64,000 bases of DNA from the NCBI GenBank assembly GCA_027366525.1, contig DAHXKG010000010.1, positions 1-64,000 on the forward strand, given 5' to 3'. How positions within the stretch are numbered: position 1 is the first letter of the stretch; every line of letters starts with the position of its first letter. The DNA comes from a candidate division FCPU426 bacterium (lineage in GTDB: Bacteria > Oederibacteriota > Muellerivitia > Muellerivitales > DAHXKG01). Both the position numbers and the translations under genes were made by a program. The notes under the pieces were generated by a model that worked only from the letters and a program-made list of their open reading frames with translations, had not been told where the DNA came from and made no database searches. Below, in pieces: positions 3,749 to 55,454 of the stretch.

Positions 3749-3760
3749 CTTCGCATCCGG

Positions 3761-14039: not shown

Positions 14040-14217
14040 ATCATCCACTCCGGAATTATGATCAATATATATAACAATGATCATAATATACAATTGCGAT
14101 TATAATTTCAATTTTTTTGATAATCAATATTCAGGTCATATCTAATTTGATAAATAAATGCCACACTATAAAAGCAACTTTTTATGAAATTTGATTGAGA
14201 ATACCAGGAGACCTCTA

Positions 14218-14559
14218 ATGCATGAATATTCGATGGCTCAAGAAATAGTTCAAGTTGCCCTCGCTCATTGCCAAGAAAAAAAAATCAGGGCGATTTACTT
14301 ACGTATTGGAGCCTTATCGGGCATTGCTTGGGAATCCCTCCAGCTTTACTTAAATTTGATTTTAGAAGAAAAAAATCTTGATTTTGTCCAGGTTTTTGAA
14401 ACAGAGATTCCACCCTCTTTTCAATGCCAATGTGGTCAATCGTATATTAGTTCATGGACCGAAGGATGTCCTTATTGCGGATCCTTTCAACGAACGATTC
14501 AAGAAGGACTTGATTGTCAAATCGAAAGTATTGAAATAGAAGAAACGTCTTCATCATAA
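14218..14559 (+). CDS. hypA: Hydrogenase nickel-insertion protein HypA
   Basis: A 113-residue HypA/HybF protein that delivers nickel to [NiFe] hydrogenase large subunits together with HypB. The start MHEYSMA places the nickel-binding His at residue 2, and AGGAG lies seven bases before this ATG. The zinc site has FQCQCGQ and GCPYCGS. Upstream in-frame ATG codons would bury the essential N-terminus. It lies 30 kb from the hydrogenase operon that carries hypB. hypC-F are not in the window. Confidence 0.93.
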   Translation: MHEYSMAQEIVQVALAHCQEKKIRAIYLRIGALSGIAWESLQLYLNLILEEKNLDFVQVFETEIPPSFQCQCGQSYISSWTEGCPYCGSFQRTIQEGLDCQIESIEIEETSSS

Positions 14560-32598: not shown

Positions 32599-32618
32599 AT
32601 TTCTATTCCTTTCCAATT

Positions 32619-34136
32619 TTACAAATCATGTCCACAGTATGACAGGTTAAAACTTTTATTGCACAATGGGAAATCCGAAATGGGTTGATGTCGAAGCGCT
32701 ATTGCCAATCCCATCCAATTATGAAACGAAGGATCCACAATTTTATATCGCTGAAATCGTCCTTGAGGATCAGTCAAAGCGATATGCATAATTTCACCTC
32801 GCCAACCTTCAATCATTGCAAGGGCCACTGAATTGGGCTGTAGTTTTTCCAGAGGAATCAGCAATTCACCTTGAGGCATATGGGTTAGACTATTTTGAAT
32901 CCAACGGACCGACGCTTGAATTTCAAGCCATCGAACATAGGCTCTTGCAAAAACATCTCCAGTTTTCTGTATCGATATCGGTAACCGTTGAGATTGATAA
33001 ATACCCCAAGGATGCGTCAATCGAACATCGCGTTTAAGTCCGCATGCGCGAGCACTGAAACCCACAAGACCTAAATTTCTGGCCATGGACTCCGTTAGAA
33101 TGCCTGTACCTTCAAAGCGCGATAAAACCGATGACTCTTTCCAAAGCAACTGAACTGCCTGTTGCGTTTCCTCAACTATTGTTTCCAGTTTCTTTAAAAG
33201 TTCTGTTTTCCTGCTTGCCTCTAAATCGAATCGAACACCTCCCAAACGTATTAAATTTCGTCCAAATCGATTGCCGCACAAAAGGGCGGTCAAATTTAAA
33301 ACATTGCCACGAAGTCGTCCACAAAATGCCGAAGTTGATAAAAATCCAATATCATTGGCTAATGCTCCTAAATCGCCAATATGATTAGCTAAGCGCTCTA
33401 ATTCTAAAGCAAGGCCTCGAATTAATTCAGCTTTGAAAGAAATTTTATGATTCAATTGCATCAAAGCTTCAACCACCTGACTATAAGCCCAAGCATGTCC
33501 AATCGATGTATCGCCGGACAATGTTTCTGCATGGTGAAGTGATCGTGCATGCGGACCATGCCACAATGCTTCTTCTACTCCTCGATGTTGATAACCCAAA
33601 GTAATTTCTAGATGGATTACTTCTTCACCATGACACTGAAATCGAAAATGTCCAGGTTCAATGACCCCGGCATGCACGGGACCCACTCCGACCTCATGTA
33701 TTTCCTCTCCAAAAACTTGGAAAAAATCCATTGTGTCAATTGCAGGTCTTGGATGAACCTTATCGGATTGAATGGGTTGCAACGGTTTTTGAAATCGGAT
33801 CGGTTTTAACCAGGGATGATGTTCAGGATAAACACCCCATTGTTCCCAAATTTCTCGCTCGAACGCTTGTATTTGTGGACATTCTTGAGCAAGAGAAGGA
33901 AAGTGTTTTTCAACGAGACTGGTCGTGATTTCCAAAGAATTATTTTCATTTTCAACAATGGCCATGATCCTCAATTGAGATTGATGTTCCCAATGGGAGC
34001 CCCAAAGTGCACAGATCCGGCCACCACGCGAAACCGATGTTAATACAATTTCCTGAAACTTTGAAATAGATACACATGGAATCTTCTTTAGCGGTATGCT
34101 TTGTCCATTTTGAATCGGAATCGTTGACGTTGTCAT
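32619..34136 (-). CDS. Ehr complex large subunit (NuoC-NuoD/HyfG-like) without NiFe cysteines
   Basis: A 505-residue fusion of a NuoC-like domain (about 1-150) and a NuoD/hydrogenase large-subunit-like domain. In true group 4 hydrogenases the N-terminal pair sits in RxCGIC and the C-terminal pair in DPCxxC. Here the corresponding places read HHAETLSGDTSIGHAW and KIVDPSFHNWMGLA, so all four nickel ligands are absent. The tail SDFPLCNKSFNLSYCGHDL is typical of Ehr-type proteins. The complex therefore cannot make or oxidise H2 by the known mechanism. The start at 34136 overlaps the preceding stop (TGATG), with GAGG upstream. The substrate pocket is unassigned. Confidence 0.88.
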   Translation of the reverse strand: MTTSTIPIQNGQSIPLKKIPCVSISKFQEIVLTSVSRGGRICALWGSHWEHQSQLRIMAIVENENNSLEITTSLVEKHFPSLAQECPQIQAFEREIWEQWGVYPEHHPWLKPIRFQKPLQPIQSDKVHPRPAIDTMDFFQVFGEEIHEVGVGPVHAGVIEPGHFRFQCHGEEVIHLEITLGYQHRGVEEALWHGPHARSLHHAETLSGDTSIGHAWAYSQVVEALMQLNHKISFKAELIRGLALELERLANHIGDLGALANDIGFLSTSAFCGRLRGNVLNLTALLCGNRFGRNLIRLGGVRFDLEASRKTELLKKLETIVEETQQAVQLLWKESSVLSRFEGTGILTESMARNLGLVGFSARACGLKRDVRLTHPWGIYQSQRLPISIQKTGDVFARAYVRWLEIQASVRWIQNSLTHMPQGELLIPLEKLQPNSVALAMIEGWRGEIMHIALTDPQGRFQRYKIVDPSFHNWMGLAIALRHQPISDFPLCNKSFNLSYCGHDL

Positions 34137-35602
34137 CAATAAGACCTCAGCCAATGCGCGGCCCATTGAAGTTCTTGCGATAAAGGCATGGGGAGATATA
34201 ATCCCAATATTAAAACAGTGATTAATAAAATTGCCGATGGGAAATAAGTCCACCGTCGTTCTTGATGAGCTGTTTCAAAAACTTCCCCTTGAAACATATT
34301 TAAAAAGGTCCAAGCCATTCCAATAAAAATCATGCTTAAAAACAAAAGAAAGAGCATCACACCGATCATTTGATGATGATCCACAGCTGCTTTGAGAATC
34401 CAAAATTCGCTAAAAAAAGTTCCAAAAGGAGGCATTCCGGTAATTGCAAGAAATCCAATGATCCATAAAATTCCAGAATAAGGCATTCGCTTTGCAAGAC
34501 CGTTGACGCGCAAAATCATCTTGGAGTGATAAACCGTTAAAATATTTCCGGCAATTAAAAACAGTGCGGCCTTGGTGAGTGAATGACAAACTACATGAAA
34601 TAAAACCGCAAAAAATGCACTTGACCCCACTCCAATTCCAAATGCCAAGATTCCCATATGTTCAACACTCGAATAAGCCAATAATCGTTTATAATCCTTT
34701 TGCCCTAAAATAAAAAGAGCGGCAACCCCCATCGAAATCAAGCCAAATATCAAAAAAAGCTTCTGAGCAAAAATACCCACACCCGCCGCTTCACAAATTA
34801 CAAAAATTCTTAGAAGCGCAAGAAATGAACAATTCAAGAGCGTACCTGATAAAAGTGCTGAAATCATGGAGGGAGCTTCACTATGAGCGTCGGGGAGCCA
34901 CGCATGCATCGGAGCCAAACCCATTTTGGTGCCATATCCTACTAAAAAGAAAATAAAAGCAATTCTTAACCACGCCTTTTTTAAAATTTTGGCTTTGGAT
35001 AATAAACTCCCAAGTGAAAGAGAAGCCATCAGTTTGCCATGAACGACTGCCGCAATTCCTATGAAAAAATTGCCCAAAAGAGCCAAAGCAATGCCAACAG
35101 AACACAAAATGAGATATTTCCATGTTGCTTCCAAAGAGCGTTGATGACGATGAAAATAAACTAAGGGAGCACTGGATATCGTAGTGGTTTCAACGGCAAT
35201 CCACAAAACATTCAAGTCATGGGCTAGGGTTACCAGGGTCATAGAGGCTAGAAAAAAAAGCAAACATCCGATGAACAACGACTCCGGTGTATTTTTAAAA
35301 AATTGATATGGATTTTGAAAATCCGGATGCAACTCGTGCGGTTCATTTTTTAAATATTGTATCGTATATAATGATACATTCAGAAACAAAAAACTCAACA
35401 CGGTCAAAAACAAAAGCCCTAATGAATCCAGTTTTAACGCTCCATGCCATGCTGGCTGCGGTTTATGAATCCAAAACATCAACGTGATTAACATATGGGC
35501 TATTGTTGCCGTTAATAAAATCCATCGGCCGATCTTGTTGGATCTAATTCCAAAGCTTAAAATACCAGCCACACAAGGTATCCACAAAATCCAGCAAATC
35601 AT
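34136..35602 (-). CDS. Ehr complex antiporter-like subunit HyfF/NuoN-type
   Basis: A 488-residue membrane protein with about 14 helices of the Proton_antipo_M family. Characteristic stretches are VAHDLNVLWIAVETTTISSAPLVYF, TKMGLAPMHAWLPDAHSEAPS (quinone oxidoreductase antiporter signature) and KRLLAYSSVEHMGILAFG. These subunits carry the ion-translocating Lys/Glu residues. The ATG at 35602 has an AAGGAG site. It lies between the HyfE-like and large-subunit genes. Confidence 0.88.
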   Translation of the reverse strand: MICWILWIPCVAGILSFGIRSNKIGRWILLTATIAHMLITLMFWIHKPQPAWHGALKLDSLGLLFLTVLSFLFLNVSLYTIQYLKNEPHELHPDFQNPYQFFKNTPESLFIGCLLFFLASMTLVTLAHDLNVLWIAVETTTISSAPLVYFHRHQRSLEATWKYLILCSVGIALALLGNFFIGIAAVVHGKLMASLSLGSLLSKAKILKKAWLRIAFIFFLVGYGTKMGLAPMHAWLPDAHSEAPSMISALLSGTLLNCSFLALLRIFVICEAAGVGIFAQKLFLIFGLISMGVAALFILGQKDYKRLLAYSSVEHMGILAFGIGVGSSAFFAVLFHVVCHSLTKAALFLIAGNILTVYHSKMILRVNGLAKRMPYSGILWIIGFLAITGMPPFGTFFSEFWILKAAVDHHQMIGVMLFLLFLSMIFIGMAWTFLNMFQGEVFETAHQERRWTYFPSAILLITVLILGLYLPMPLSQELQWAAHWLRSY

Positions 35603-35639
35603 ATTTTCTCCTTAACTCAATACCATCCATATGAAATCG

Positions 35640-36293
35640 TTATTGAATCTTATCTTTAAGAATCGAAAGTTGATCTGTATCCATATTTTCAAAATTTTGA
35701 TGAATATGAAAAATCAAGATACCCATGATAAAAATAGCCACAAAAAGATCTAAAAGCATTCCTATTTCTACTAAAAAGGGTTCTCGCATATCCAGCGAAA
35801 TACCTAAAACGTAAATACCATTTTCTAAGTTCAAATATCCCACTACCTGGAGTAACGCAGTTCGTCTCGTCATTAATAATATCAATCCAATAGCAATCGT
35901 GAAAAATCCAACCGAGAGCGATAACGATGGAAGAAGTAAATCTTTTTGGGGTAAATGCCATGCAAAATCAAGTGAAAACGCCCACACAATTATGCCCGCT
36001 AAAAGCGAAACAAAAATGAGGAGCACTGAACGTGTTTCGCGTTGAAAATGAATGCCTTGGACTGCACGCATGAGAAAATAAGGAAAGATGTACGCTCGAA
36101 TAATCACGCTTAAGCCTGCTATCAAATACAAAAGAAAATTTGCATGCCCTCCACTGGCCAGTAGTGGTAAGAATCCTACTAAAGCACCTTGAATTCCGAT
36201 CCAATGGACGAAAGCCTTCAATTGATCTAACACCAAAAATAAAAAATCAATAAAACAAATAATCATAAGAATTACATTCGTCAAATGTGTCAT
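35640..36293 (-). CDS. Ehr complex membrane subunit HyfE-like
   Basis: A 217-residue protein with about six helices, similar to HyfE, which resembles NuoK in part. Marks are AGLSVIIRAYIFPYFLMRAV, LLMTRRTALLQVVGYLNLENGIYVLG and VEIGMLLDLFVAIFIMGI. I chose ATG 36293, which overlaps the hyfC-like stop (ATGA) and has GGAG upstream. A longer frame to 36308 has no ribosome site. Part of the membrane arm. Confidence 0.82.
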   Translation of the reverse strand: MTHLTNVILMIICFIDFLFLVLDQLKAFVHWIGIQGALVGFLPLLASGGHANFLLYLIAGLSVIIRAYIFPYFLMRAVQGIHFQRETRSVLLIFVSLLAGIIVWAFSLDFAWHLPQKDLLLPSLSLSVGFFTIAIGLILLMTRRTALLQVVGYLNLENGIYVLGISLDMREPFLVEIGMLLDLFVAIFIMGILIFHIHQNFENMDTDQLSILKDKIQ

Positions 36294-37198
36294 CCGATTG
36301 CACTCCAAATATGAATCATCGCGAATAGAGTCAGAACAAATGAACCTGCAATAAACAACGGGACTCTAGATAATTTCAATCGAGCCATACTCGATTCTAC
36401 TAAACCAATGCTTACTCCCACCAAGCCCATTCCGATGATCACCCATCCCAAATTAATCCAACCACTGCTTTTAATCGGACATACGATTGAGATCCATATT
36501 GAACAAAAAATCCAAAGTTTTAATGATGATGCATATTCCATCCATGCTAAATCCGGACCTCCCGTATCTAAAAGCATGACTTCATGAATCATGGTTAATT
36601 CCAGATGTGTTGTCGGATCATCCACAGGCATTCGAGCATTTTCAGTTAAAAGTAGAATAAAAATGGCTCCCGCCAGTAAAAAAATACTTGTCGTATCTTG
36701 AGACCATAAATGCATATTAAACTGAAGAAGCGCTTTTGAAAATTCTAGCGAATGTCCCAATTTTGCTAGTGAAAACAAAATTAGGAAAAAAACGGGTTCC
36801 GTCAAGCTAGATAAGACCGCCTCTCGACTTGCTCCCATGCCTTCAAAACTCGAACCTGTATCTAACGCAGCTAAAATCGTGAAAAAACGCATTAAAGCTA
36901 ATAAAAAAATGATGACTATTAAATCTCCTGGAAATGCTATGGCTGGTGGCCATCCATTTAATGGAAGCATCAATAGAACTAGCAAACTCGCCACTACATT
37001 GATCACCGGAGTCACACGAAAAATCCAGGAAGTGGCATTACTATAAAGGCTTTGTTTTCGCATCAGTTTCGACAGATCCCAATAACTTTGAAACCATTTG
37101 GGCCCTTTTCTGCCTGCCATGCTTGCTTTAGTTTTATAAATAATGCTGACTAATAAAGGCGCAAATAAAATCGCCATCAAAAATGCAATAAGATTCAT
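36290..37198 (-). CDS. Ehr complex membrane subunit HyfC/NuoH-like
   Basis: A 302-residue membrane anchor of the NuoH/HycD/HyfC family with about eight helices. Visible are the KASMAGRKGPKWFQSYWDLSK loop, the conserved VDDPTTHLELTMIHE segment and EGMGASREA. It connects the peripheral arm to the ion channel. ATG 37198 overlaps the preceding stop by four bases. Confidence 0.88.
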   Translation of the reverse strand: MNLIAFLMAILFAPLLVSIIYKTKASMAGRKGPKWFQSYWDLSKLMRKQSLYSNATSWIFRVTPVINVVASLLVLLMLPLNGWPPAIAFPGDLIVIIFLLALMRFFTILAALDTGSSFEGMGASREAVLSSLTEPVFFLILFSLAKLGHSLEFSKALLQFNMHLWSQDTTSIFLLAGAIFILLLTENARMPVDDPTTHLELTMIHEVMLLDTGGPDLAWMEYASSLKLWIFCSIWISIVCPIKSSGWINLGWVIIGMGLVGVSIGLVESSMARLKLSRVPLFIAGSFVLTLFAMIHIWSAIG

Positions 37199-39168
37199 CG
37201 GTACATTCCATTCCAAATGAGAAGAATTAGGAGGGTTAGCGTTACATAAATCAAATAGAGCTGCAGTCGACCGTGTTGTAGTTTCTTGCCGTGGTTAATC
37301 CATTGTTGAAAATAATTCATCATAGGGATATAAATTTTTTCTTTCAGATAATCGATTGCTTGAGTGGAAAATTCCATTTTATTTGGAAACACTGATTGAT
37401 ACTCCATTCTTGAATATTGCTTAAGAAAGGGATGAAAAATTCGAGTCAGGGGTTGCACTAATGAGGAAGGCGTATACTGCATTCGGCGTGTGGGTTGATC
37501 ATATCCACAATCCCAAGTACGAGTTCGAGTCGAATGAGCCGTGTTGTATAAATAAACCAACATCAAAATGGCCAAAGCACCCATAAGAATAACATTGAGC
37601 CCAGTGACTATAAAAAGCGAGATCTTGAAAACTTGAAGACTATTGTGCACTCGTATCGGTTGGGTCTGCGTTAGTAAGCCTAAAATTGGTTGAATCGCTC
37701 GAATCAATTGCACCGATAAAATTGATGATAACAAACAGGCTAATGTTAAAATACCTAATAGTATTTTTACTGATTGTTTCAAGGGATGGGGTTTGGATTT
37801 TTCTGTTCGAGGATGTCCTAGAATAACCGTGCCTGAGACCTTTAAAAAAGCCAACGTAGCCAGTCCACCAGCAAAAGCCACTCCACCTACAACTACAGAA
37901 AAAACTAGAAACATATCGGGGTGACTAGACTGTATCCCTACCCAAGAAGCCCAAAACAATGAAAATTCGCTAATAAATCCATTCAATGGGGGTAATCCAC
38001 AAATCGCCATTGATCCCCATATAAAAAAAAAGCTAGCTAACGGCATCAGTTGATTCAATCCTCCTAATTGTTCTAAGTTCCGGGTTTTTTGAGCATGGAC
38101 AATTACGCCTGCCGTTAAGAAGAGAAGCCCTTTCATTAAGGAATGATTTATCGTGTGAAGCAACGCCGCTCCAAATCCAAGTAAAGCAAGGAGTTCATTA
38201 TGAATTTTCAAACCCGTAATTCCCATTCCAATGCCTATAAATATCAGTCCCATGTTTTCAATGCTGGAATACGCCAATAGACGTTTCAAATCTCGTTGAG
38301 ATAAAGCCCAAAAAGCACCTAAAATGGATGAACCCATACCCAAAATCATAATTACAAAACCCCAATCAATTGATAAAGAGGGCTCTAAAAACAAAAAAGA
38401 ACGCATTAGTCCATAAATTCCCATGCTAATGAGTCCGGTCGACATCAGAGCAGAAATATGACTTGGAGCTGCTGGATGGGCTTCGGGCAACCAAACATGA
38501 AATGGAACCACGCCTGCCTTCATTCCAAATCCAATGAGCGCACATAAAAAAAGAATATTGGCTTGATGCGGCGGTATCTGGGAGATCAAATGAAAATCCA
38601 AACCTCCTTTGCCGATGACAATAAAAAAAAATAAAAGAAACGCTATGCCTATGTGTGAAAGTATTAGATAAAGTAATCCTGCATTTCGAACTTCTTTTTT
38701 TTCATGTTCTAAACCGATTAGAAAAAAAGAAGAAATTGACATCAATTCCCAAGCTACCAAAAACAGAAGGCCATTCCAGGCAACGATTATTAGAATCATG
38801 CTTCCAGTTAAAATATGAAACCAAAACCAATGCATCCCCATGGGTCTTTTGTCTTCACTAGGATGCATGGTTGCCATTCCAAATCCAGCTGTGATCCATG
38901 CTAAAAACAAAATCAAAATTAGAAAAAAGCTAGATAATGGATCCAGTTTAATTTCCAAGCATGCATGAAAAGCACTCGGCCCTAAAGGGATTTTTGAATA
39001 GAAACAACCTTTATGCGGATGTGCCACTGCCATTAAACCTAATCCCAACGCCATGGACAAACTCAATGGAATTCCTATTCGTAAAATCCGAGGCGAGTGA
39101 GAGAAAATTAAGGAGAATAAAGCACCTAATCCTAAAATGCCAATGCATGCCATCAACGCGTGGATCAT
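37195..39168 (-). CDS. Ehr complex antiporter-like subunit HyfB/NuoL-type
   Basis: A 657-residue membrane protein with about 16 helices. Antiporter marks are LVAWELMSISSFFLIG, KAGVVPFHVWLPEAHPAAPSH, LMSTGLISMGIYGLMR, KRLLAYSSIENMGLIFIG, HTINHSLMKGLLFL and a late CGLPPLNGFISEFSLF. A C-terminal WDCGYDQPTRRMQYT segment is typical of HyfB. The start ATG 39168 overlaps the ArsR-gene stop by four bases, so it is the first structural gene of the operon and is translationally coupled to its presumed repressor. Confidence 0.9.
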   Translation of the reverse strand: MIHALMACIGILGLGALFSLIFSHSPRILRIGIPLSLSMALGLGLMAVAHPHKGCFYSKIPLGPSAFHACLEIKLDPLSSFFLILILFLAWITAGFGMATMHPSEDKRPMGMHWFWFHILTGSMILIIVAWNGLLFLVAWELMSISSFFLIGLEHEKKEVRNAGLLYLILSHIGIAFLLFFFIVIGKGGLDFHLISQIPPHQANILFLCALIGFGMKAGVVPFHVWLPEAHPAAPSHISALMSTGLISMGIYGLMRSFLFLEPSLSIDWGFVIMILGMGSSILGAFWALSQRDLKRLLAYSSIENMGLIFIGIGMGITGLKIHNELLALLGFGAALLHTINHSLMKGLLFLTAGVIVHAQKTRNLEQLGGLNQLMPLASFFFIWGSMAICGLPPLNGFISEFSLFWASWVGIQSSHPDMFLVFSVVVGGVAFAGGLATLAFLKVSGTVILGHPRTEKSKPHPLKQSVKILLGILTLACLLSSILSVQLIRAIQPILGLLTQTQPIRVHNSLQVFKISLFIVTGLNVILMGALAILMLVYLYNTAHSTRTRTWDCGYDQPTRRMQYTPSSLVQPLTRIFHPFLKQYSRMEYQSVFPNKMEFSTQAIDYLKEKIYIPMMNYFQQWINHGKKLQHGRLQLYLIYVTLTLLILLIWNGMYR

Positions 39169-44794: not shown

Positions 44795-45063
44795 CGTATA
44801 TTCCTTTATGAAGTCGTACTAGTCTCGAGAGTAATCCATTCGTAATTTAAGTTTAGCTTGATCCATCCAATTACTCTATGATTTACAACGACAGCTCGAA
44901 GACCAGTTCATTAAACATTTTGTATATCAAATTTTGTTACTCGTCTTTAAGGTCCAAATCATGTATTCGTCATGATAAGGAATATAAACCTTAGGCATGT
45001 TGCCAATATTCGCCTTATGGTATATTTTTTTGAAATTTAAACTTGCGTGATGGCAGGTTGCCT

Positions 45064-46089
45064 ATGTCAGTCAAACAAATAAGCACCAATATGTTACGAG
45101 GTTGGATTGATGGACTACTGTTGCAAAAAACGGTAATCGGTCCCGTTCAACACCAAGGGCACTTTCGATTTGAATCAATCACGTCATCTGATCAATTAGC
45201 ACTTGATTACGATGTAACTGATTTGCCACCAAAAAAATTTTTATTGCCCCCTCGGGAAGTCATGATGACCTTTCGTTCCTCGGGAGAATTCCAGAGCGTG
45301 ATGGAATTTCATCCCTTTGTGCTTTTTGGAGTTCATCCCTATGATATGATCGCCATTAATCAAATGGATCGTGTTTTTTCAGAAAAATTAGTGGATATTC
45401 ATTATTTAACACGTCGCAATGCCTGTTCAATTGTGGCTCTAGATCCCGTCGCAGTAGCCCCTCATAATTTTTCTGGTTGTATGGGAACTGCGACGGTTGA
45501 AAAAGGTTGGGACCTCCTTTTAACACCACTGCCACAAGATGGCTATTTACTGGAAATCGGAACCGAAAAGGGAAATACACTACTCCATTCGATCTATGAG
45601 CTCCCCGATGCTTCTCTGGATCAACTTCAATTGCGTGAACAACGATGGAATCAAAATCAAAAATCCATGCGTCGTCATGAACTCAAATGTGCTCCCGATG
45701 ATTTACCCGATCTTTTGGAACAAAATTATGACCATCCCCTCTGGCAAGAAAAATCCAGTCAATGTTTATCCTGCGGAGCGTGTAATATTGTTTGCCCAAC
45801 CTGCTATTGCTTTGATATCCAAGATGAGGTGGATTGGAGCCTAGAAACTGGAGTTCGTTGTAGAGCTTGGGATGGGTGCTTGCTACGTGATTTTGCTGAA
45901 GTTGCAGGAGGACATAACTTTAGAAAGCAATCAGCAGAACGCTATCGCCATCGATTTTATCGTAAAGCCAGTTATTTGCCTAAACGCTTCGGAGAAATCG
46001 CATGCGTCGGATGCGGACGATGTATCAGTGCTTGTATTCCCAATATTTCCAACCCCGTAGAAGTTTATAATCAACTCGTAGGAGAATAA
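45064..46089 (+). CDS. hydB: Group 3b [NiFe] hydrogenase (sulfhydrogenase) beta subunit, iron-sulfur
   Basis: A 341-residue cytoplasmic iron-sulfur subunit of the HydBGDA type. It has an AsrA-like N-terminal part (FVLFGVHPYDMIAINQMD), and two C-terminal [4Fe-4S] sites, CLSCGACNIVCPTCYC and CVGCGRCISACIP. It links the FAD subunit to the hydrogenase dimer. ATG 45064 with AGG upstream is preferred to a TTG 21 bp earlier. First gene of the large hydrogenase operon. Confidence 0.92.
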   Translation: MSVKQISTNMLRGWIDGLLLQKTVIGPVQHQGHFRFESITSSDQLALDYDVTDLPPKKFLLPPREVMMTFRSSGEFQSVMEFHPFVLFGVHPYDMIAINQMDRVFSEKLVDIHYLTRRNACSIVALDPVAVAPHNFSGCMGTATVEKGWDLLLTPLPQDGYLLEIGTEKGNTLLHSIYELPDASLDQLQLREQRWNQNQKSMRRHELKCAPDDLPDLLEQNYDHPLWQEKSSQCLSCGACNIVCPTCYCFDIQDEVDWSLETGVRCRAWDGCLLRDFAEVAGGHNFRKQSAERYRHRFYRKASYLPKRFGEIACVGCGRCISACIPNISNPVEVYNQLVGE

Positions 46090-46090
46090 T

Positions 46091-46951
46091 ATGGATCCAC
46101 AGATTGATTCGCCTGTTATTGGACATCCTTCCTCCGATATTTATTTGCCTCATCCAGCCCTAATTACTTCTATGTGTTCGCTCACCGCACTTGATATGCT
46201 TTTTGAGATTCACGTACCCTCCCCAGAGGTTCATACACCCTCACCCGGTCAATTTGTGGAAGTTTCTCTACCCGGCATTGGAGAAGCTCCTATTTCGGTA
46301 TGTTCATTTTCAAACCACCCTCATCAATTTCAAATACTTGTGCGTCGAATTGGAAACGTGACTCAAGCACTTCATCAACTTCAAATAGGAAAATCTATTG
46401 GAATTCGCGGTCCTTTCGGAACTACTTTTCCAGTCGATCGTGAGCTTCGGAAACAAAATATTTTATTTATTGCGGGCGGCCTTGGACTAGCACCCTTGCG
46501 CTCAGCTATCCAATACGTCCTCCATCGGCGATGGGATTATGGAAAACTCATCATTCTTTATGGAAGTCGAACCCCTGATGAACAATTATTCCTAGAAGAT
46601 CTTCATGATTGGAAATCTCGAAAAGATTTAACGTATTTAGAAACGGTCGATCGAGGAGGCCCAAACTGGAAAGGACGTGTAGGGGTCATCACAACTTTAT
46701 TCTCGCTGTTAAATCTTGAGGATGATCCTTGGAGTGCAATTATTTGTGGCCCACCAGTCATGTATTCATTTGTCCTCCGTGAACTCCGTCAACGTCAAAT
46801 CCCTAATGAGTTGATCTATGTTTCTCTTGAACGTCGAATGAAATGCGGAGTCGGCATGTGTGGGCACTGCCAAATCAATGGATTGTACGTTTGTCAAGAT
46901 GGTCCTGTCTTTAGATACAAAGATTTAATCCATCTTCAGGAGGCCCTTTAA
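46091..46951 (+). CDS. hydG: Group 3b hydrogenase gamma subunit, FAD/NAD(P)-binding
   Basis: A 286-residue flavoprotein of the ferredoxin-NADP reductase fold that exchanges electrons with NAD(P)H. The FAD part has SPGQFVEVSLPGIGEAPISV, the NAD(P) part has ILFIAGGLGLAPLRSAI and LIILYGSRTPDE, and the C-terminal [2Fe-2S] site is MKCGVGMCGHCQING…VCQDGP. It begins one base after the hydB stop and has AGGAG six bases upstream. Confidence 0.93.
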   Translation: MDPQIDSPVIGHPSSDIYLPHPALITSMCSLTALDMLFEIHVPSPEVHTPSPGQFVEVSLPGIGEAPISVCSFSNHPHQFQILVRRIGNVTQALHQLQIGKSIGIRGPFGTTFPVDRELRKQNILFIAGGLGLAPLRSAIQYVLHRRWDYGKLIILYGSRTPDEQLFLEDLHDWKSRKDLTYLETVDRGGPNWKGRVGVITTLFSLLNLEDDPWSAIICGPPVMYSFVLRELRQRQIPNELIYVSLERRMKCGVGMCGHCQINGLYVCQDGPVFRYKDLIHLQEAL

Positions 46952-47706
46952 TGTCAAAGCCCCAAGTTGCTATTTTTGATTTGGCAGGGTGTGAAGGCTG
47001 TCAATTGCAGATTGTCAATTTGGAGGATTCTTTGCTTCAACTCTTGTCTCTCGTCGACGTCGTTGAATGGCGGGAGGCGATTAGTAATCATGGACCAGAA
47101 ATTGATATTGCCTTAGTTGAAGGATGTTTAGAACGTGAAGAGGATGTCGCACGCCTTCTGCACATTCGTGAAAAATCAAAAATTTTGGTCGCCTTAGGTT
47201 CTTGTGCTATTTCCGGCGGAGTCCACCAAATGCGAAATGCACTTTCTAGTCTAGAAGCCAGACAAATTACTTATGGCAATAATGGATTTTTGAAGCATCT
47301 TGATGTCCATGAAAAAGTTCAATCTTTGGATCAGATTGTGAAAGTAGATTATTCAATTCCAGGGTGTCCAATTCATCGCCAAGAACTGAGTTATGTACTG
47401 CGATGCTTGGCATTGGGCAGAATCCCCTTTATTCCTACTTATCCGGTTTGCGTTGAATGCCGAATTCAAGAAAATTTATGTCTCTGGCAACAAGGGCAGC
47501 TTTGTTTAGGTCCGCTTACGCGAGCTGGTTGCCATGCAACTTGCCCCTCTCATGGCACTCCTTGTATAGGATGTCGCGGTTATTCCTCAGATGCCAATCC
47601 CCAAGGTTTGCGTCAAAGTTTGAATCGATACCATAAAACACCTGAAGAATTTGAACATCACTTGAACTTGTTTTTAGGCTCATCTTTGGAGCACGCACAT
47701 GCCTAA
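46951..47706 (+). CDS. hydD: Group 3b hydrogenase small (delta) subunit
   Basis: A 251-residue electron-transfer subunit with three iron-sulfur sites. The proximal cluster is in AGCEGCQLQ, LGSCAISGG and SIPGCPI. The medial and distal clusters are in the C-terminal CVECRIQENLCLW, CLGPLTRAGCHATCPS and CIGCRGY. It pairs with the large subunit encoded next. Start and preceding stop overlap (TAATG), and AGGAGG is upstream. Confidence 0.93.
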   Translation: MSKPQVAIFDLAGCEGCQLQIVNLEDSLLQLLSLVDVVEWREAISNHGPEIDIALVEGCLEREEDVARLLHIREKSKILVALGSCAISGGVHQMRNALSSLEARQITYGNNGFLKHLDVHEKVQSLDQIVKVDYSIPGCPIHRQELSYVLRCLALGRIPFIPTYPVCVECRIQENLCLWQQGQLCLGPLTRAGCHATCPSHGTPCIGCRGYSSDANPQGLRQSLNRYHKTPEEFEHHLNLFLGSSLEHAHA

Positions 47707-49003
47707 ATCTTTTCAAATACAAATTCCTCATATTACACGAGTTGAAGGACACGGAAATTTAGTTGTTCGCGTCACAGATGGACATGTTGAAAAAGCCGAA
47801 TGGCAAGTTGTGGAAGCGCCAAGATTTTTTGAAGCTTTTGTTCAAGGACGTCGCTGGGATGAAATTCAAGCTGTCGTCTCACGCATTTGCGGTATTTGTT
47901 CCATTAGCCATTCTTTAGTCTCGATTCAAGCAATTGAAAATGCTTTGCATGTTCAGGTTTCACCTGAGGTCCAAAAATTAAGAAGCCTCACACATGCCTC
48001 TGAAATTCTTCAAAGTCATATTCTTCATATCGGATATTTGGTTGCGCCAGACCTGTTCAAAGCTCCTTCCGTTATTCCCTTGGTTGAAAATCAAAGAGAA
48101 GTCGTTCAAAAAATCATTGAGCTCCATCGTATTGCCAATCAATGGTCCGATCTGCTAGCTGGAAGAACAACACACCCGATCACGCTCATTCCAGGGGGAT
48201 TTACCCGAACCCCTTCTTTAAAAGAGTTTGAAAATCTCCAACATGATCTTTCCACAGCTACAAAATTAACGAATCAGATTGCCAGCGTAATCCTTTCGGT
48301 AGCTCATCAAATCCCTCATTTTGAACGTGAGACCGAGTATATCGCACTTCAACAACCGGGCCAATATTCATTTGAAAGTGGACAAATTGCAAGCAGTGAC
48401 CTTCCAGAGTTGACACCCGTTGAAAATTTCGAATCCGTAACTAATGAATATGTCACAAATCAATCCACGGCTAAATGGGCTCGATGGCATCGAGGGGCTT
48501 ATGCCGTAGGCGCTTTAGCTCGCTATAATCTCAATCACAAATTCCTTCGTCCAGCTGCCGCCCAACTGGCCCATCAATTAGGAATCAAATCCAAATGTAT
48601 TAATCCTTATGCAAATTCGCTTATTCAATTAGTAGAATGCGTTCAAATTCTTGGAGATGCTCAAGAGTTAATCGACTTCTTTTTAGAAAATCCTCATCCT
48701 TTGAATCGCGAATCCATTACTCCAAGGGCTGGCGAAGGTGTCGCGGCCATTGAAGCTCCACGTGGCATTTTATTTCACCGTTACCAATTGAATGATCAAG
48801 GCATTTGTCGTTCAGCTAATCTTTGTATTCCCACAAATCAAAATCATGGTAATCTTCAAAAAGATATTGAAACCCTTCTTCCGCAGATTTTACACGATGA
48901 TCAGGAATCCATTCGTCAATTGCTGGAAATGCTGGTTCGATCCTACGATCCTTGCATTTCATGTTCGACGCATTTTTTGAATATCAAGTTTATTGATTCT
49001 TAA
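47699..49003 (+). CDS. hydA: Group 3b [NiFe] hydrogenase large (alpha) subunit
   Basis: A 434-residue catalytic subunit. The N-terminal HITRVEGHGNLVV precedes the first nickel pair in SRICGICSISHS. The second pair is in YDPCISCSTH, followed by nine residues (FLNIKFIDS) that the endopeptidase should remove after nickel insertion. All four nickel/iron cysteines are intact. It overlaps hydD by 8 bp. The enzyme probably evolves or oxidises H2 with NADP(H)/NAD(H) as partner and may also reduce sulfur compounds, as known for archaeal sulfhydrogenases. Confidence 0.95.
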   Translation: MPKSFQIQIPHITRVEGHGNLVVRVTDGHVEKAEWQVVEAPRFFEAFVQGRRWDEIQAVVSRICGICSISHSLVSIQAIENALHVQVSPEVQKLRSLTHASEILQSHILHIGYLVAPDLFKAPSVIPLVENQREVVQKIIELHRIANQWSDLLAGRTTHPITLIPGGFTRTPSLKEFENLQHDLSTATKLTNQIASVILSVAHQIPHFERETEYIALQQPGQYSFESGQIASSDLPELTPVENFESVTNEYVTNQSTAKWARWHRGAYAVGALARYNLNHKFLRPAAAQLAHQLGIKSKCINPYANSLIQLVECVQILGDAQELIDFFLENPHPLNRESITPRAGEGVAAIEAPRGILFHRYQLNDQGICRSANLCIPTNQNHGNLQKDIETLLPQILHDDQESIRQLLEMLVRSYDPCISCSTHFLNIKFIDS

Positions 49004-49017: not shown

Positions 49018-49482
49018 ATGTCTACTGCTTTGGTCGCTGTAGGCAACCCGCTTATGGGCGATGAAGGCATTGGCATTCAAATTATTGAATGGTTTTGGAA
49101 GCATCCGAAAATGACTCAAACGTTTGATTGTTTAGAAATTTCAGGAAGCTTATTTGAACTGATTGATCTGGTTTCCCATTATTCAAAAATTATTTTCGTC
49201 GATTGTGCATTCATGGGCGCACTCCCGGGAAAACTTCGGCGATTTCAGATTTCCCATATTCAGTCTCTGAAAACAAGTTCACCGTTTTCCCTACATAGTA
49301 ATGATTTAATTGATGATCTTCAAACTGCCCTCACATTAAATGCCAATGCTACTGATTCAATTATTCTCTATGGCATTGAACCTGCTTATGTGGGACCTCG
49401 TCCCTCTCTTTCCCACGATCTTTTCGAAAAGATTCCTCTTTATGCACAAACCATACTCCAAGATTTTGATCAACGCATCTAG
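49018..49482 (+). CDS. Hydrogenase maturation endopeptidase (HycI/HoxW family)
   Basis: A 154-residue protease that removes the C-terminal tail of a [NiFe] large subunit. Motifs: LVAVGNPLMGDEGIGIQII with the first metal-binding acidic residue, IIFVDCAFMG, FSLHSNDL and ILYGIEPAYVGP. AGGA precedes the ATG. It lies 14 bp after hydA. Since only HydA has a cleavable tail here (EchE ends at DPCISCTER), HydA is the expected substrate. Confidence 0.92.
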   Translation: MSTALVAVGNPLMGDEGIGIQIIEWFWKHPKMTQTFDCLEISGSLFELIDLVSHYSKIIFVDCAFMGALPGKLRRFQISHIQSLKTSSPFSLHSNDLIDDLQTALTLNANATDSIILYGIEPAYVGPRPSLSHDLFEKIPLYAQTILQDFDQRI

Positions 49483-49590: not shown

Positions 49591-50670
49591 ATGGGCAAGC
49601 AAACAATTATCCCGTTTGGACCTCAGCACCCTGTCCTCCCCGAGCCAATTCATTTAGATTTAGTGCTCGAAGATGAACAGGTGCTTCAAGCTATTCCCCG
49701 CATTGGATTTGTTCATCGAGGTTTAGAAAAGCTTGCTGAAAAAAAAGATTTTCAAGACATGGTTTATGTTGGAGAACGCATTTGTGGTATCTGTAGCTTT
49801 ATTCATAGCGTGGCGTTTTGCCAAGCGATGGAATCTATTCTTGGAATCGAAGTTCCCGAGCGTGCTCAAAGCTTGAGAGGTTTCTGGAGTGAACTCTCTC
49901 GAATTCATAGCCATTGGTTGTGGATGGGATTATTAGCTGATTCGTTTGGATTTGAAAATCTATTCATGCAAACTTGGAAACTTCGAGAATCCTTGCTGGA
50001 TTTGGTCGAAGCAACTGCAGGTGGACGCGTCATTTATGGATCCTGTAAAATTGGTGGCGTGCGCCGCGATATTTCTCTTGAATTAATAACTCAGGCTCAA
50101 ACTACACTTAAAGCACTTTACACTCAACATCAAATTCTGGCTTCTATTTTTGAAAACGATACTTCGATTCAACATCGAACTCAAGGCAAAGGAATGCTCA
50201 GCAAAGACAAAGCTTATGAATTAGGTGCAGTAGGACCTACTTTGCGAGCAAGTGGATGGCCTTTAGACGCTCGTCTCTTAAAATATGGCACTTATCAAAA
50301 TCTTGAATTTCAACCCGTGGTAGAAACTCAAGGCGATTGTTATGCCCGTATGCGAGTGCGCATACGCGAAGTAGATCAATCTTTTGATTTAATTAATCAA
50401 CTTCTTAAAAAATTGCCCGATGGACCTGTAGAAACCAAAATCACCGGCATGCCTTCCGGAGAGCATTTTGAACGTGTAGAACAACCCCGAGGAGAGGTGG
50501 TGCACTATCTAAAAGGAAATGGCAGTAAGTTTCTTGAGCGTTATCGAGTCCGTACGCCAACTTTTGCAAATCTTCCTGCCTTGGTTGAAATTTTAAAAGG
50601 TTGTACCTTTGCGGATGTTCCCATCATTGTTCTTTCCATTGATCCTTGCATAAGTTGTACGGAGCGTTAA
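49591..50670 (+). CDS. echE: Ech-type hydrogenase large subunit EchE
   Basis: A 359-residue group 4 [NiFe] catalytic subunit. It starts IIPFGPQHPVLPEP, has IPRIGFVHRGLEKLAE, the first nickel pair in GERICGICSFIHS, and the second in the very last residues DPCISCTER. No C-terminal extension exists, as in EchE/CooH, so no proteolytic maturation is needed. I chose ATG 49591 because AAGGA lies eight bases upstream. It receives electrons from ferredoxin through EchF/EchC and makes H2 while the membrane part moves ions. Confidence 0.95.
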   Translation: MGKQTIIPFGPQHPVLPEPIHLDLVLEDEQVLQAIPRIGFVHRGLEKLAEKKDFQDMVYVGERICGICSFIHSVAFCQAMESILGIEVPERAQSLRGFWSELSRIHSHWLWMGLLADSFGFENLFMQTWKLRESLLDLVEATAGGRVIYGSCKIGGVRRDISLELITQAQTTLKALYTQHQILASIFENDTSIQHRTQGKGMLSKDKAYELGAVGPTLRASGWPLDARLLKYGTYQNLEFQPVVETQGDCYARMRVRIREVDQSFDLINQLLKKLPDGPVETKITGMPSGEHFERVEQPRGEVVHYLKGNGSKFLERYRVRTPTFANLPALVEILKGCTFADVPIIVLSIDPCISCTER

Positions 50671-50671
50671 C

Positions 50672-51061
50672 ATGTCCTATTTTCAAATGCTCAATTTATC
50701 CATCCAGCAATTATGGCATCGGCCAGCCACTCGACTTTATCCCCAAGAAGTCCGCCCGGTAATTGCCCGGAGTCGAGGCCGTGTCGAACTCCAGCCATCC
50801 ACTTGTACACTCTGCCTACTCTGTGAAAAAAAATGCCCAACCCATGCGATCCATATCGACCGCACTCAACGATTGTTCACCTTGGATCGGTTTCAATGTA
50901 TCCTTTGTGGCGCCTGCGAATCTGCTTGTATTGCTAAGCACGCGATCGTTTTATCTGAACACTATGCACCACCTCAAACTCATCGTGACGTGATCATTTG
51001 GCCCGTGCCTTCTACTCCGCCTTCTTTGGCTTCAACAACCAAATCTCAAAATAAAGGATAA
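50672..51061 (+). CDS. echF: Ech hydrogenase ferredoxin-like subunit EchF
   Basis: A 129-residue protein with two [4Fe-4S] motifs, CTLCLLCEKKCPTHAIHI and CILCGACESACIAKHAIVL, as in NuoI/HycB/EchF. It passes electrons from soluble ferredoxin to EchC. GGAG lies seven bases before the ATG, directly after the echE stop. The C-terminal tail is Pro/Ser-rich. Confidence 0.92.
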   Translation: MSYFQMLNLSIQQLWHRPATRLYPQEVRPVIARSRGRVELQPSTCTLCLLCEKKCPTHAIHIDRTQRLFTLDRFQCILCGACESACIAKHAIVLSEHYAPPQTHRDVIIWPVPSTPPSLASTTKSQNKG

Positions 51062-51064: not shown

Positions 51065-51145
51065 ATGGCTCCATCGACTTTGAAAATTAAAATTCCGTTG
51101 AAGTTAAAATTGTCTCATAAGAATGGGAAGGTCTGCTATGAATGA
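51065..51145 (+). CDS. Possible 26-aa basic peptide ORF
   Basis: A short frame from ATG 51065 to TGA 51145 fills the gap between echF and hypB and overlaps the hypB start by eight bases. The peptide is basic (PLKLKLSHKNGK) with one Cys. AAAGGA lies eight bases or less upstream, across the echF stop. It could be a leader that couples hypB translation, or only chance sequence. No homologue is recognised. Confidence 0.3.
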   Translation: MAPSTLKIKIPLKLKLSHKNGKVCYE

Positions 51146-51791
51146 AAAAATCAATATTGCCACCAAGGCCTTGTCTGCAAACGACCAAATTGCTGCTCAA
51201 AACAAAGATTTTTTTAAATCAAAACATGTCTTAGTTTTAAATATGATCAGTTCTCCCGGATCCGGAAAAACCTCTCTATTGGAAGCTATGGCTTACCAAT
51301 ATGGGTCATCTCTCGCCGTCATTACTGGTGACATTCAAATGACCTATGATGCCGACCGAATTCGTAAGGCTGGAAGTGCAGCTGTTCAAATCGAAACTCA
51401 CGGAACTTGTCACTTAACGGCTAGTATGGTTCAACAAAAAATTCAGGAATTGACTTGGGATAAAACTCGAATACTAGTCATTGAAAATGTGGGTAATCTG
51501 GTTTGTCCATCGGGATATCAATTGGGTGAGGATCTCAAAATAGGGTTATTGAGTGTCACTGAAGGAAGCGAAAAACCCATGAAATATCCATCTTTATTTA
51601 CCCGCGCTCAAGCACTGGTCATCACTAAAATCGATCTACTTCCCTATGTTGATTTCAACTTAGATCAAGTGCAATCGGACTGCCACAAATTAAATACTCA
51701 CCTCCAACTTTTCCAAATTTCAACTAAAACTCATCAAGGCTTAGAGGCTTGGTTTGACTTTCTAAATTCTCATTTTCTTTTGGGGATTTAA
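51138..51791 (+). CDS. hypB: Hydrogenase nickel-incorporation GTPase HypB
   Basis: A 217-residue SIMIBI GTPase that works with HypA to insert nickel. Motifs: P-loop ISSPGSGKTSLLEAM near residue 42, TGDIQMTYDADRI, IETHGTCHL (metal-binding Cys-His pair at the dimer interface), VIENVGNLVCPS and VITKIDLLP. There is no N-terminal His-rich or CxxCGC nickel store. ATG 51138 has GGAAGG upstream. Positioned inside the Ech operon. Confidence 0.95.
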   Translation: MNEKINIATKALSANDQIAAQNKDFFKSKHVLVLNMISSPGSGKTSLLEAMAYQYGSSLAVITGDIQMTYDADRIRKAGSAAVQIETHGTCHLTASMVQQKIQELTWDKTRILVIENVGNLVCPSGYQLGEDLKIGLLSVTEGSEKPMKYPSLFTRAQALVITKIDLLPYVDFNLDQVQSDCHKLNTHLQLFQISTKTHQGLEAWFDFLNSHFLLGI

Positions 51792-54662
51792 ATGTTTTCC
51801 GAATTTATACAAAACCCAGTTCATCTGATGAGCTTCCTAGTTCTTTTTCCGTTTTTTTCAGCCATGCTATTAGCTTGGATGAAAGGGTCTTTTTGGCAGA
51901 GTTGGATCGTACGATGGAGTAGTCTCCTTCTGATGTTGACGTCATTGCTTTTGGCCTTTCAAACTTCCTGGAGACCCCATCTTTTTTTTATATTACCTCA
52001 CCTTCATTGGATTACCACCTTAGGCGATTTGATCATCACTCTATTCTTGTTTTGGATTTTTTTAAAAAAAGGGACTCGAAAAGAATTATGGATTCTTAGT
52101 CTTTTAATTTTTCAAACAATTATATTACTTTATACTGACTGGGTTTTGGGGCTTAAAACAACGCCCTTCCCTTTCTATTTAGATTCGTTTTCCATAATCA
52201 TGATTTTAATTATTGGAGTGATCGGTGGACTAATCTGCATTTATGCCATTCCTTATATGAAAACTTATCATAACCACCATCCTCATCTTCCAGACCATCG
52301 TCGACGTTTTTTCTTTTTATTTTTCCTTTTTTTATCTGCGATGACCGGCATCGTTATTTCAAACGATCTTTCTTGGCTACTTTTATTTTGGGAAATAACT
52401 ACTCTATGTTGTTTTTTGTTAATCGGCTATGCCGATGATGCTGAAGCTCGAAAAAATGCTTTCTTAGCCCTTGGATATAACTTGATTGGAAGTCTAGGCA
52501 TCGTGATAACTCTATGGATTTTAGCTGAAATGCACCAAAAACCTTCTTTGACCCACATTATCTCTTTGGGAAAATTAGGAGCAATCCTAGGTTTGCTTGC
52601 GGCGGCACTACTTGCCTTGGCCGGATTAGCTAAATCTGCTCAACTTCCTTTTAGTTCATGGCTTACAGGAGCCATGGTGGCTCCCACCCCTGTTTCAGCA
52701 CTACTTCATTCAAGCACCATGGTCAACGCTGGAGTATTTCTCATTTTAAAATTAGCTCCCATATTCCATGCACATATCGCTCTAGGTGAAAGCCTTAGTT
52801 TCATTGGAGGCATTACTTTTTTAATTTCGTCTATTATTGCCTTAAACCAATCCAACATTAAACGCATGTTAGCTTATTCAACCATAAGCAACTTGGGCTT
52901 AATTGTGGCTTGTGCTGGAATTGGAACACCCGAAGCTATTTGGGCTGCCATTTTTCTAATTATTTTTCATGCAATTGCCAAAGCACTCTTGTTTCAAACA
53001 GTCGGAACGGTTGAACATCAGATTGGAAGCCGAGATATTGAAACCATGGATGGGCTTTGGATACGTCATCGCGGATTAACGCTCGCCTTGATTTTAGGAA
53101 CGCTAGGCATGTTTCTGGTGCCTTTTGGAATGTTAATTAGTAAATGGGCATGTTTGCAAACCTTTATTCATTCTAGCCCTATTCTTGCCTTGCTCTTGGT
53201 TTTTGGAAGTGCCCCCACATTATTTTTCTGGAGCAAATGGATGGGAAAACTCATCTCGCCTCCTTCCACTCCTTCGGAAATAACCCTCGATTCCAGTCTG
53301 GTCAGCAAGGATACCTGGTTCTCCATCGGAATGTTGATGATCCTGACCCTAGTGGCATGCTTTTTATTTCCTGCCATTTCTCATTTCTGGGTAGATCCCT
53401 ATCTAGGCCTAACGATGTCGTCCTTAGGTCCCTGGACTTTACATCACCCCTTGTTCTTATGGGTCACTCTCATCCTTTTATTAATTCTTCCTGCAGGTTT
53501 CTTTTTTTTAGCCCCTTCCTATAAAACCGTTACACCTTATTTATGTGGCTTGAACATCCCTGCCACTACCTCCAATGCTCAATTTCAAGGATCATTAGGA
53601 CAAATTCATACCGTCCAAATTCGAAATTATTATTTGACTTCATATTTTAAAGAGAAATCATTACTGAAAATAGGTCAAGTGCTAGGAATTATCTTTTTGT
53701 TGATCATGATTCTGATTAACTTCCATCACTGGAAACTTTCCACACCCTTTCTCCCGCCACCAGTATGGAATTCTAATTCTCCTTCATGGCTACATCTTGG
53801 AATGGTTGCATTACTTTTCTTTATTAGTGCACCTATTCTTGGCGCTCTACTAACCGGCTTCGACCGTATTGTCACTGCACGAATTCAAAATCGATATGGG
53901 CCTCCTCTACTTCAACCTTTTTATGATATTCTCAAGTTGTGGAATAAACAAACGAGTGTTGTTAATCCCATGCAGATTTTCTATGTTTGGGGATTTGTTC
54001 TTTTTATGCTTTTAACTGGATTTATTTTCTTTTCCGGTGAAAGTTTGTTGCTGGTTATTTTCTCCATGATGCTTGGTTCCTTATTCTTAACCTTAGCTGC
54101 ATTTTCTACCCCTTCGCCTTACAGTCATCTGGGAGCTGAGCGAGAACTCATTCAGATGATGGCTTATGAACCGCTTCTGTTATTGACTGCCTTGGGCATG
54201 GATTTAAGTACTGGTAGTTTTCAAATTCAAACCATTGCCACTTCTCATTACCCCTTGTTATATCAACTGCCCGGTTTTTTTCTTGGATTTTTAATGCTCC
54301 TAACCATCAAACTTAGAAAATCTCCGTTTGATCTTTCAACCTCCCACCATGGGCATCAGGAACTTGTTAAGGGGCTGACAACTGAATTTTCAGGTTCGCT
54401 TTTGGCCTTGATCGAAATAGGACATTGGTATGAAAATATTATTTTGCTGGGAATTTTATGCCTATTTATTCTACATTGGCCCTGGGAGATCTTGTTAACC
54501 GTTTTGACTTTTCTCTTTATTTTTGAAATTCTTATTGATAACACTTATGCTCGTTTTACGTGGGAAAAAACTCTTCAGACAGCTTGGATTGTTGCCGCTC
54601 TTTTCGGAGGATCAAATCTTCTATTTCTATTTTATTATCACTCAATTAATGTGAGGCCTTAG
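51792..54662 (+). CDS. Fused Ech hydrogenase membrane subunits EchA-EchB
   Basis: A 956-residue protein joining two subunits that are normally separate. Residues about 1-640 are an EchA/NuoL-like antiporter: SNDLSWLLLFWEITTLCCFLL, KSAQLPFSSWLTGAM, ALLHSSTMVNAGVFLILK and KRMLAYSTISNLGLIVA. Residues about 660-956 are EchB/NuoH-like: LLTGFDRIVTARIQNRYGPP, YDILKLWNKQ, GAERELIQMMAYEPLL and KSPFDLSTSHHGHQELVKG. A short segment with one extra helix (LGIIFLLIMILINF) links them. The frame is uninterrupted, with no internal stop or shift, and starts at the base after the hypB stop. Physical linkage would fix 1:1 stoichiometry of pump and anchor. Confidence 0.92.
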   Translation: MFSEFIQNPVHLMSFLVLFPFFSAMLLAWMKGSFWQSWIVRWSSLLLMLTSLLLAFQTSWRPHLFFILPHLHWITTLGDLIITLFLFWIFLKKGTRKELWILSLLIFQTIILLYTDWVLGLKTTPFPFYLDSFSIIMILIIGVIGGLICIYAIPYMKTYHNHHPHLPDHRRRFFFLFFLFLSAMTGIVISNDLSWLLLFWEITTLCCFLLIGYADDAEARKNAFLALGYNLIGSLGIVITLWILAEMHQKPSLTHIISLGKLGAILGLLAAALLALAGLAKSAQLPFSSWLTGAMVAPTPVSALLHSSTMVNAGVFLILKLAPIFHAHIALGESLSFIGGITFLISSIIALNQSNIKRMLAYSTISNLGLIVACAGIGTPEAIWAAIFLIIFHAIAKALLFQTVGTVEHQIGSRDIETMDGLWIRHRGLTLALILGTLGMFLVPFGMLISKWACLQTFIHSSPILALLLVFGSAPTLFFWSKWMGKLISPPSTPSEITLDSSLVSKDTWFSIGMLMILTLVACFLFPAISHFWVDPYLGLTMSSLGPWTLHHPLFLWVTLILLLILPAGFFFLAPSYKTVTPYLCGLNIPATTSNAQFQGSLGQIHTVQIRNYYLTSYFKEKSLLKIGQVLGIIFLLIMILINFHHWKLSTPFLPPPVWNSNSPSWLHLGMVALLFFISAPILGALLTGFDRIVTARIQNRYGPPLLQPFYDILKLWNKQTSVVNPMQIFYVWGFVLFMLLTGFIFFSGESLLLVIFSMMLGSLFLTLAAFSTPSPYSHLGAERELIQMMAYEPLLLLTALGMDLSTGSFQIQTIATSHYPLLYQLPGFFLGFLMLLTIKLRKSPFDLSTSHHGHQELVKGLTTEFSGSLLALIEIGHWYENIILLGILCLFILHWPWEILLTVLTFLFIFEILIDNTYARFTWEKTLQTAWIVAALFGGSNLLFLFYYHSINVRP

Positions 54663-54664: not shown

Positions 54665-55135
54665 ATGAATTTTTTGAAAAAATCACCGTGGATACTTCAC
54701 TATGATGCCTCCAGCTGTAATGGATGCGATATTGAAGTATTAGCATGTTTAACACCCATCTATGATGTAGAACGACTCGGCATCATTAATACCGGCAATC
54801 CTAAGCATGCTGATATTCTGTTGATTACTGGTGCCATTAATGCCCAAAATCAATCGGTCGTTCAAACCCTCTATGAACAAATGCCCGCGCCCAAGGTTGT
54901 TGTCGCCATTGGAGCTTGTGCTCTTTCTGGCGGGATTTTTAGCCAGTGTTATAACCTTCACCAAGGCGTTGATTCGACTATTCCGGTTGATATTTATGTT
55001 CCGGGATGTGCTGCACGCCCAGAAGCCATTATTGATGGTGTTCTTCAAGCCGTGGCTTGCTTTAATCAAAAACAAACTATCCGATCCAATCAGAAAAGGA
55101 CGTCCCATGGAATCAAACTTGATTCACACCATTGA
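54665..55135 (+). CDS. echC: Ech hydrogenase small subunit EchC
   Basis: A 156-residue NuoB-like subunit holding the proximal [4Fe-4S] cluster. The cysteines are in SSCNGCDIEVLACL, IGACALSGG and VPGCAARPEAI. It pairs with EchE. GAGG is upstream of the ATG, two bases after the EchAB stop. The 3' end overlaps echD. Confidence 0.94.
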   Translation: MNFLKKSPWILHYDASSCNGCDIEVLACLTPIYDVERLGIINTGNPKHADILLITGAINAQNQSVVQTLYEQMPAPKVVVAIGACALSGGIFSQCYNLHQGVDSTIPVDIYVPGCAARPEAIIDGVLQAVACFNQKQTIRSNQKRTSHGIKLDSHH

Positions 55136-55454
55136 TGCATCCGAATTGGGAATCCAAGTTGCTACTTTTAAAACCCAAGGATATCGCTTGGTTCAAATTT
55201 CTGTTTTGGTCATCCCAGAGGCGTTCGAAGTAACCTATAGTTTTGATCACCATTTATCCTTACAACATTTGAGGATACTTATTCCTAAACAGGCTGCACA
55301 ACTTCAAAGTATTACACCATTCTATGCAGGGGCTTTTACTTATGAAAATGAAATACAGGATTTATTTGGAGTGACTCTTGTGGGATTACAACTCGATTTC
55401 CACGGTCATTTTTATCAATTATCTCAGCCTACACCTTTTGTGCCACCCGCCTAA
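55107..55454 (+). CDS. echD: Ech hydrogenase subunit EchD (NuoC-like)
   Basis: A 115-residue NuoC/EchD-like subunit. Family pattern: FEVTYSFDHHLSLQHLRI, ITPFYAGAFTYENEIQDLFGV and the closing LDFHGHFYQL. The start ATG 55107 with AGGA six bases upstream lies inside echC in another frame (29-bp overlap), implying coupled translation. Last gene of the hydrogenase operon. Confidence 0.9.
   Translation: MESNLIHTIDASELGIQVATFKTQGYRLVQISVLVIPEAFEVTYSFDHHLSLQHLRILIPKQAAQLQSITPFYAGAFTYENEIQDLFGVTLVGLQLDFHGHFYQLSQPTPFVPPA

Follow-up and report, generated by a model that had tools for sequence, protein, structure and literature searches.

An EchA-EchB fusion gene in the predicted Ech-type hydrogenase locus of a candidate division FCPU426 bacterium

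In a 64,000-nucleotide stretch of contig DAHXKG010000010.1 (assembly GCA_027366525.1; hereafter the window) from a candidate division FCPU426 bacterium, the antiporter-type subunit EchA and the NuoH-type membrane anchor EchB are encoded by one continuous gene. Judged from the gene set in which it lies (Table 1), the locus very probably encodes an ordinary ion-pumping [NiFe] hydrogenase of group 4 (Ech type) that depends on ferredoxin and has EchA and EchB made as one polypeptide.

Table 1. Features of the Ech locus in the window (positions are those of the window)
Feature	Position	Strand	Assignment and remarks
EchE, [NiFe] large subunit	49591..50670	+	Mechanical ORF start 49564, likely start 49591; RICGIC, DPCISCTER-stop
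EchF, 2x[4Fe-4S] ferredoxin-like	50672..51061	+	Pfam Fer4 families; eight Cys in two CxxCxxCxxxC
hypB, nickel insertion GTPase	51123..51791	+	TIGR00073, 244 bits (cut-off 121); between echF and the fusion
EchA half (residues 1-645)	51792..53726	+	NuoL/MrpA-type antiporter core and ND3-like tail; Pfam, AF2 model, alignment to unfused EchAs
Linker HWKLSTPFLPPPVWNSNSPS (residues 646-665)	53727..53786	+	Sole added part; DSSP coil, no helix
EchB half (residues 666-956)	53787..54662	+	NuoH/ND1-type membrane anchor, about 8 predicted transmembrane helices; Pfam NADHdh
EchC, small [4Fe-4S] subunit, NuoB-like	54665..55135	+	Pfam Oxidored_q6; Cys 18, 21, 85, 115
EchD, NuoC-like	55107..55454	+	Presumed to start at the ATG of MESNLI; enclosing ORF matches Pfam Complex1_30kDa

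The fused gene and its reading frame

The fused gene (51792-54662, + strand) is a single 956-residue open reading frame with an ATG start and without an internal stop, tightly packed in the operon between the end of hypB at 51791 and the start of echC at 54665. Pfam domains of both partners lie in the same frame: Proton_antipo_N at residues 124-158, Proton_antipo_M at 190-473 (E = 3e-49) and NADHdh at 674-944 (E = 7e-40). The coding frame is open over 53600-53900, and stops occur across the junction in both other forward frames; the sole homopolymer of five or more bases in this interval, TTTTT at 53694, falls within the last EchA helix. The continuous EchA-EchB frame described in the initial annotation is thus confirmed by the open frame, by the presence of both Pfam domains in it and by the fused copies in other genomes described below.

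The core charged residues of the antiporter and NuoH parts are in place. The EchA half carries the Glu in FWEITTL (199-205), the Lys in AGLAKSAQ (277-284), the His in LLHSSTMV (304-311), the His and Lys in FHAIAKALL (392-400) and the Lys in GMLISKWA (446-453), and the EchB half, which matches MbhM (6cfw_M) and HycD (7z0s_D) by sequence, contains GFDRIVTAR, QNRYGPP, GAERELIQ, AYEPLL and KSPFDLS. A fold search of the PDB with the antiporter part returned NuoL/MrpA chains among the 50 matches listed, matches that are uninformative on the orientation of one half relative to the other. At 52725-52727 the fused protein has an Asn in place of the Lys of STMVKAGV, which is invariant in 23 aligned unfused EchAs.

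A fused frame could still give rise to two proteins, by initiation at the in-frame ATG at 53802 or by proteolysis of the proline-rich loop after insertion, and we consider this unlikely. This ATG is close to the usual EchB start and the linker is disordered in the structure model, but no Shine-Dalgarno-like stretch is present at a usable spacing upstream, and a start here would cut into NuoH helix 1. Two of the fused relatives introduced below point in different directions: the G181 gene carries an ATG in frame where EchB usually begins, shortly preceded by AAGGA, and a separate EchB could start from it, whereas the sole in-frame start codon near the junction in G018, a GTG, lies well within helix 1. 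The single chain is read here from the gene, and cleavage of the protein or a second start of translation within the gene would yield two chains again.

Fused and split relatives and the origin of the fusion

A search for homologues covering both halves, as the initial annotation had proposed, recovered three, in G018, G374 and G181, each as one fused open reading frame. The G018 gene, from the same phylum as the window, is a single 974-codon open frame with 50% identity over query residues 11-949, and has the order and junction of the window gene. Only three of the 45 genomes searched in this phylum carry the gene family (E <= 1e-70), namely the window genome and G018, both fused, and G011, in which it is split. 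The two remaining fused copies, in G374 (locus L099, 983 aa) and G181 (L100, 941 aa), belong to the phylum of a Verrucomicrobia MAG (G145), for which 388 genomes were drawn and 24 carriers, 2 of them fused, were counted at E <= 1e-100. No fused carriers were seen in the Spirochaetes, the Tritonobacter phylum, the phylum of G067 or the three-genome phylum of G059. A plasmid-borne fusion was also considered and rejected, as the sole plasmid match, from Butyrivibrio, comprises two separate annotated features.

Of the distinct loci counted, 4 have a fused gene and 68 have split genes, in agreement with the earlier statement that EchA and EchB are normally the products of separate genes. The echA stop and echB start overlap by four bases (ATGA) in 46 of the 68 split loci, and in three loci (L007, L102 and L103) echA and echB share one frame and are parted only by a stop and a few bases. 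The EchB match of L014, from the Spirochaete MAG UWPOB_SPIRO2 (2949-4094), falls in two pieces inside an overlong frame (382 aa), perhaps owing to an insertion or an assembly problem.

That the fusion is an artefact, in which an indel or base error has erased a stop and a start between truly separate genes, is highly improbable. The source is a draft assembly, and given the four-base overlap of so many split relatives a single indel close to the junction might in principle bring the frames together; however, G018 has the identical join in the identical order, G374 and G181 provide further fused copies, and the linker contains no long homopolymer. Furthermore, the span from Gly 628 in EchA to the GxDR motif in EchB is 56-63 residues in the fused proteins versus a median of 42 (tail plus head) in split pairs, a difference of 14-21 residues that a single error is unlikely to produce. 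Because the fused open reading frames in G018, G374 and G181 are independent of that in the window, sequencing or base-calling error is rejected as the explanation.

To place the fused genes, a tree was built from concatenated EchA, EchB, EchC and EchE of close relatives only. The window, on a long branch (0.92), groups with G018, G011, the Spirochaete locus L014, the Verrucomicrobia MAG locus L007 and the Chromatiaceae, and G374, G181 and G251 are placed in another part of the tree. Forcing the four fused rows into one clade, which was fixed by the fused trait and not picked off the tree, cost 275 log-likelihood units (p-AU = 9.7e-32). A single ancient fusion common to all four genomes is therefore rejected, which leaves at least two separate origins of the fusion in bacteria. 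Neither the window and G018 as one clade (p = 0.30) nor G374 and G181 as one clade (p = 0.13) was rejected, and the simplest count is one fusion event per phylum. The G251 locus (L098) is split, and at about 3390-3460 it shows a long Pro/Ala-rich tail like the fusion linkers (total 59 residues) and then just one TGA, in frame, ahead of EchB; it represents either a fusion that has possibly been re-split or a step that precedes fusion.

The linker and the orientation of the two halves

The initial annotation had proposed that a linker helix was added between the halves. In the AF2 model of the fused protein (43 sequences; pLDDT 87.5, pTM 0.91), the last EchA helix spans residues 621-645 and is followed by a coil at 646-665, in which pLDDT falls below 50 at 647-650, and then by the first NuoH helix at 666-698. 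A hydrophobic helix does come before the junction, but a truly added helix that flips the NuoH half is scarcely credible, as segment 621-645 is native to EchA (it is the C-terminal helix of unfused EchAs in the alignment, and a control model of the unfused Allochromatium EchA, with 644 residues and pLDDT 87.6, has its terminal helix at the equivalent 620-643), and the residues actually added are Pro-rich and modeled as coil. From the fused model, the control model and the alignment together, we infer that the addition in the window protein consists solely of a loop, about 20 residues long and rich in Pro. The linker contains one Lys and no Arg, a charge that is expected on the outer side of the membrane.

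The same annotation had held that the extra helix may be needed to bring the NuoH part into the right orientation, and this too is not supported. The EchA tail consists of a helix at 553-572, a long loop with YLCG at 583-586 and the last helix at 621-645; by position and resemblance, the two helices match the ND3-like tail of HycC. In complex I, helix 1 of NuoH starts at the outer side and leads into the GFDR...GPP loop in the cytoplasm. If the ND3-like loop is cytoplasmic, helix 621-645 would end on the outer side, and the end of EchA and the beginning of NuoH should thus lie on the same, outer face. With both joined ends predicted on one side by homology to FHL, a loop would suffice and no extra helix would be required.

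The Ech gene set and the predicted enzyme

The catalytic and soluble parts expected of an Ech-type enzyme (EchE, EchC, EchF and EchD) are all present. EchE has both CxxC motifs for the NiFe ligands and no C-terminal extension, and EchC, which is 79% identical to its G018 counterpart, has a CNGC motif that with Cys 85 and Cys 115 would provide the ligands for one proximal [4Fe-4S] cluster. In every relative examined over that stretch except the divergent L090, tblastn places an EchD match next to EchC. Both membrane parts are also present, as one polypeptide instead of two; as the two-polypeptide state has no bearing on the catalytic parts, we take it as architectural and not as defining. The gene order is EchE-EchF-hypB-EchAB-EchC-EchD, as compared with A-B-C-D-E-F in the other Ech loci examined, and among these loci the block swap and the hypB insertion are confined to the window.

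Among the maturation genes, hypB lies within the operon. No HypD was found in the assembly, which is 97.5% complete, though two NiFe hydrogenases are encoded, and HypE gave only sub-cut-off matches in the window genome (it scores above the cut-off in G018, G011, G374 and G251); a HypA-like gene at 14191-14559 also scores below the cut-off. The missing HypD and HypE reflect either an assembly gap or an unusual maturation. As HypD was not detected and HypE matched only below the cut-off, maturation of the NiFe site and activity stay predicted.

The Methanosarcina barkeri Ech (EchA-F) and the Ech-like operons of Methanomicrobiales (Mlab_1619-1624; PMC2686161) comprise the same six functions as the window set, and in Methanoregulaceae relatives these subunits follow the order A-B-C-D-E-F; in the M. 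barkeri and Methanomicrobiales systems EchA and EchB are two genes, whereas the window encodes one chain and a different order. The Ech-like clusters of Chromatiaceae (Allochromatium humboldtianum, L008) share the gene set, and the halves are 45% (A) and 56% (B) identical, but EchA (644 aa) and EchB (287 aa) are split with an ATGA overlap. The membrane arm of E. coli FHL is made up of only HycC (16 transmembrane helices) and HycD (8), tightly packed (7z0s, PMC9474812), and HycC ends in an ND3-like part, whose ND3 loop connects helices 15 and 16 and lies where the membrane arm meets the soluble arm (PMC9474812). The window arm would likewise comprise an antiporter with an ND3-like tail and a NuoH-like anchor in close contact, and nothing else; it differs in that HycC and HycD are separate and FHL draws its electrons from a formate dehydrogenase, and the EchA model seems to carry additional N-terminal helices relative to HycC.

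By homology with these systems, the single chain would run from an ND5-like antiporter with its native ND3-like pair of C-terminal helices, through a flexible outer-face loop of about 20 residues, to an ND1/NuoH-like anchor, and would assemble with EchC, EchD, EchE and EchF into an FHL-like complex. Reduced ferredoxin would deliver electrons to EchF, from which they would travel via EchC to the NiFe site of EchE, the predicted site of catalysis, and the EchB half would couple H2 formation, or uptake in reverse, to the passage of ions across the EchA half. A possible benefit of the fusion is that the membrane subunits would be made 1:1 and pre-joined, in place of the overlapping stop/start coupling found in most relatives. 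Because the outer-face loop is short, the ND3-like EchA end may pack beside NuoH helix 1. For the broader reading, that a single-chain ND5-/ND3-/ND1-like arm is recurrent and independently evolved across a wide set of bacteria, with the ND3-like end of EchA beside NuoH helix 1 in an FHL-like rotated arrangement, we judge the chances to be even.

Fusion of neighboring subunits is already well known in the complex I superfamily, both in the soluble arm (NuoCD and NuoBCD, PMC12361115) and between an antiporter and ND3 (the ND3-like part of HycC and MbsH', PMC9474812). NuoCD and NuoBCD unite soluble-arm subunits, whereas the window fusion unites NuoL-type and NuoH-type membrane subunits, and no description of an EchA-EchB or NuoL-NuoH type fusion, that is, of this pump-anchor pairing, was met among the openly accessible journal papers searched. 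A tether that has evolved at least twice is in effect a natural cross-link between pump and anchor, suggesting a fixed 1:1 pair with the last EchA helix near NuoH helix 1, and structural studies of Ech hydrogenases could use the fused gene as a ready-made single-chain construct.

Other hydrogenase-related genes lie nearby. A group 3b-like set (ShyB/C/D/A-like; 45043-49003, + strand) is immediately upstream of the Ech genes, with a maturation protease (49018-49482, + strand) in between; G018 has the same two hydrogenases adjacent, but on opposite strands. At 31825-39168 (- strand) is a second membrane complex, of HyfB type, in which one 263-aa chain unites the ferredoxin and small subunits and CxxC motifs are absent from the NuoC-NuoD-like large subunit (544 aa); it is therefore probably a hydrogenase-related (Ehr-type) complex lacking NiFe. 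Elsewhere in the window, two genes (10280-11857, + strand, and 20737-22998, - strand) encode long Thr/Pro repeats followed by a similar C-terminal YPNP... domain, and are possibly secreted surface proteins.
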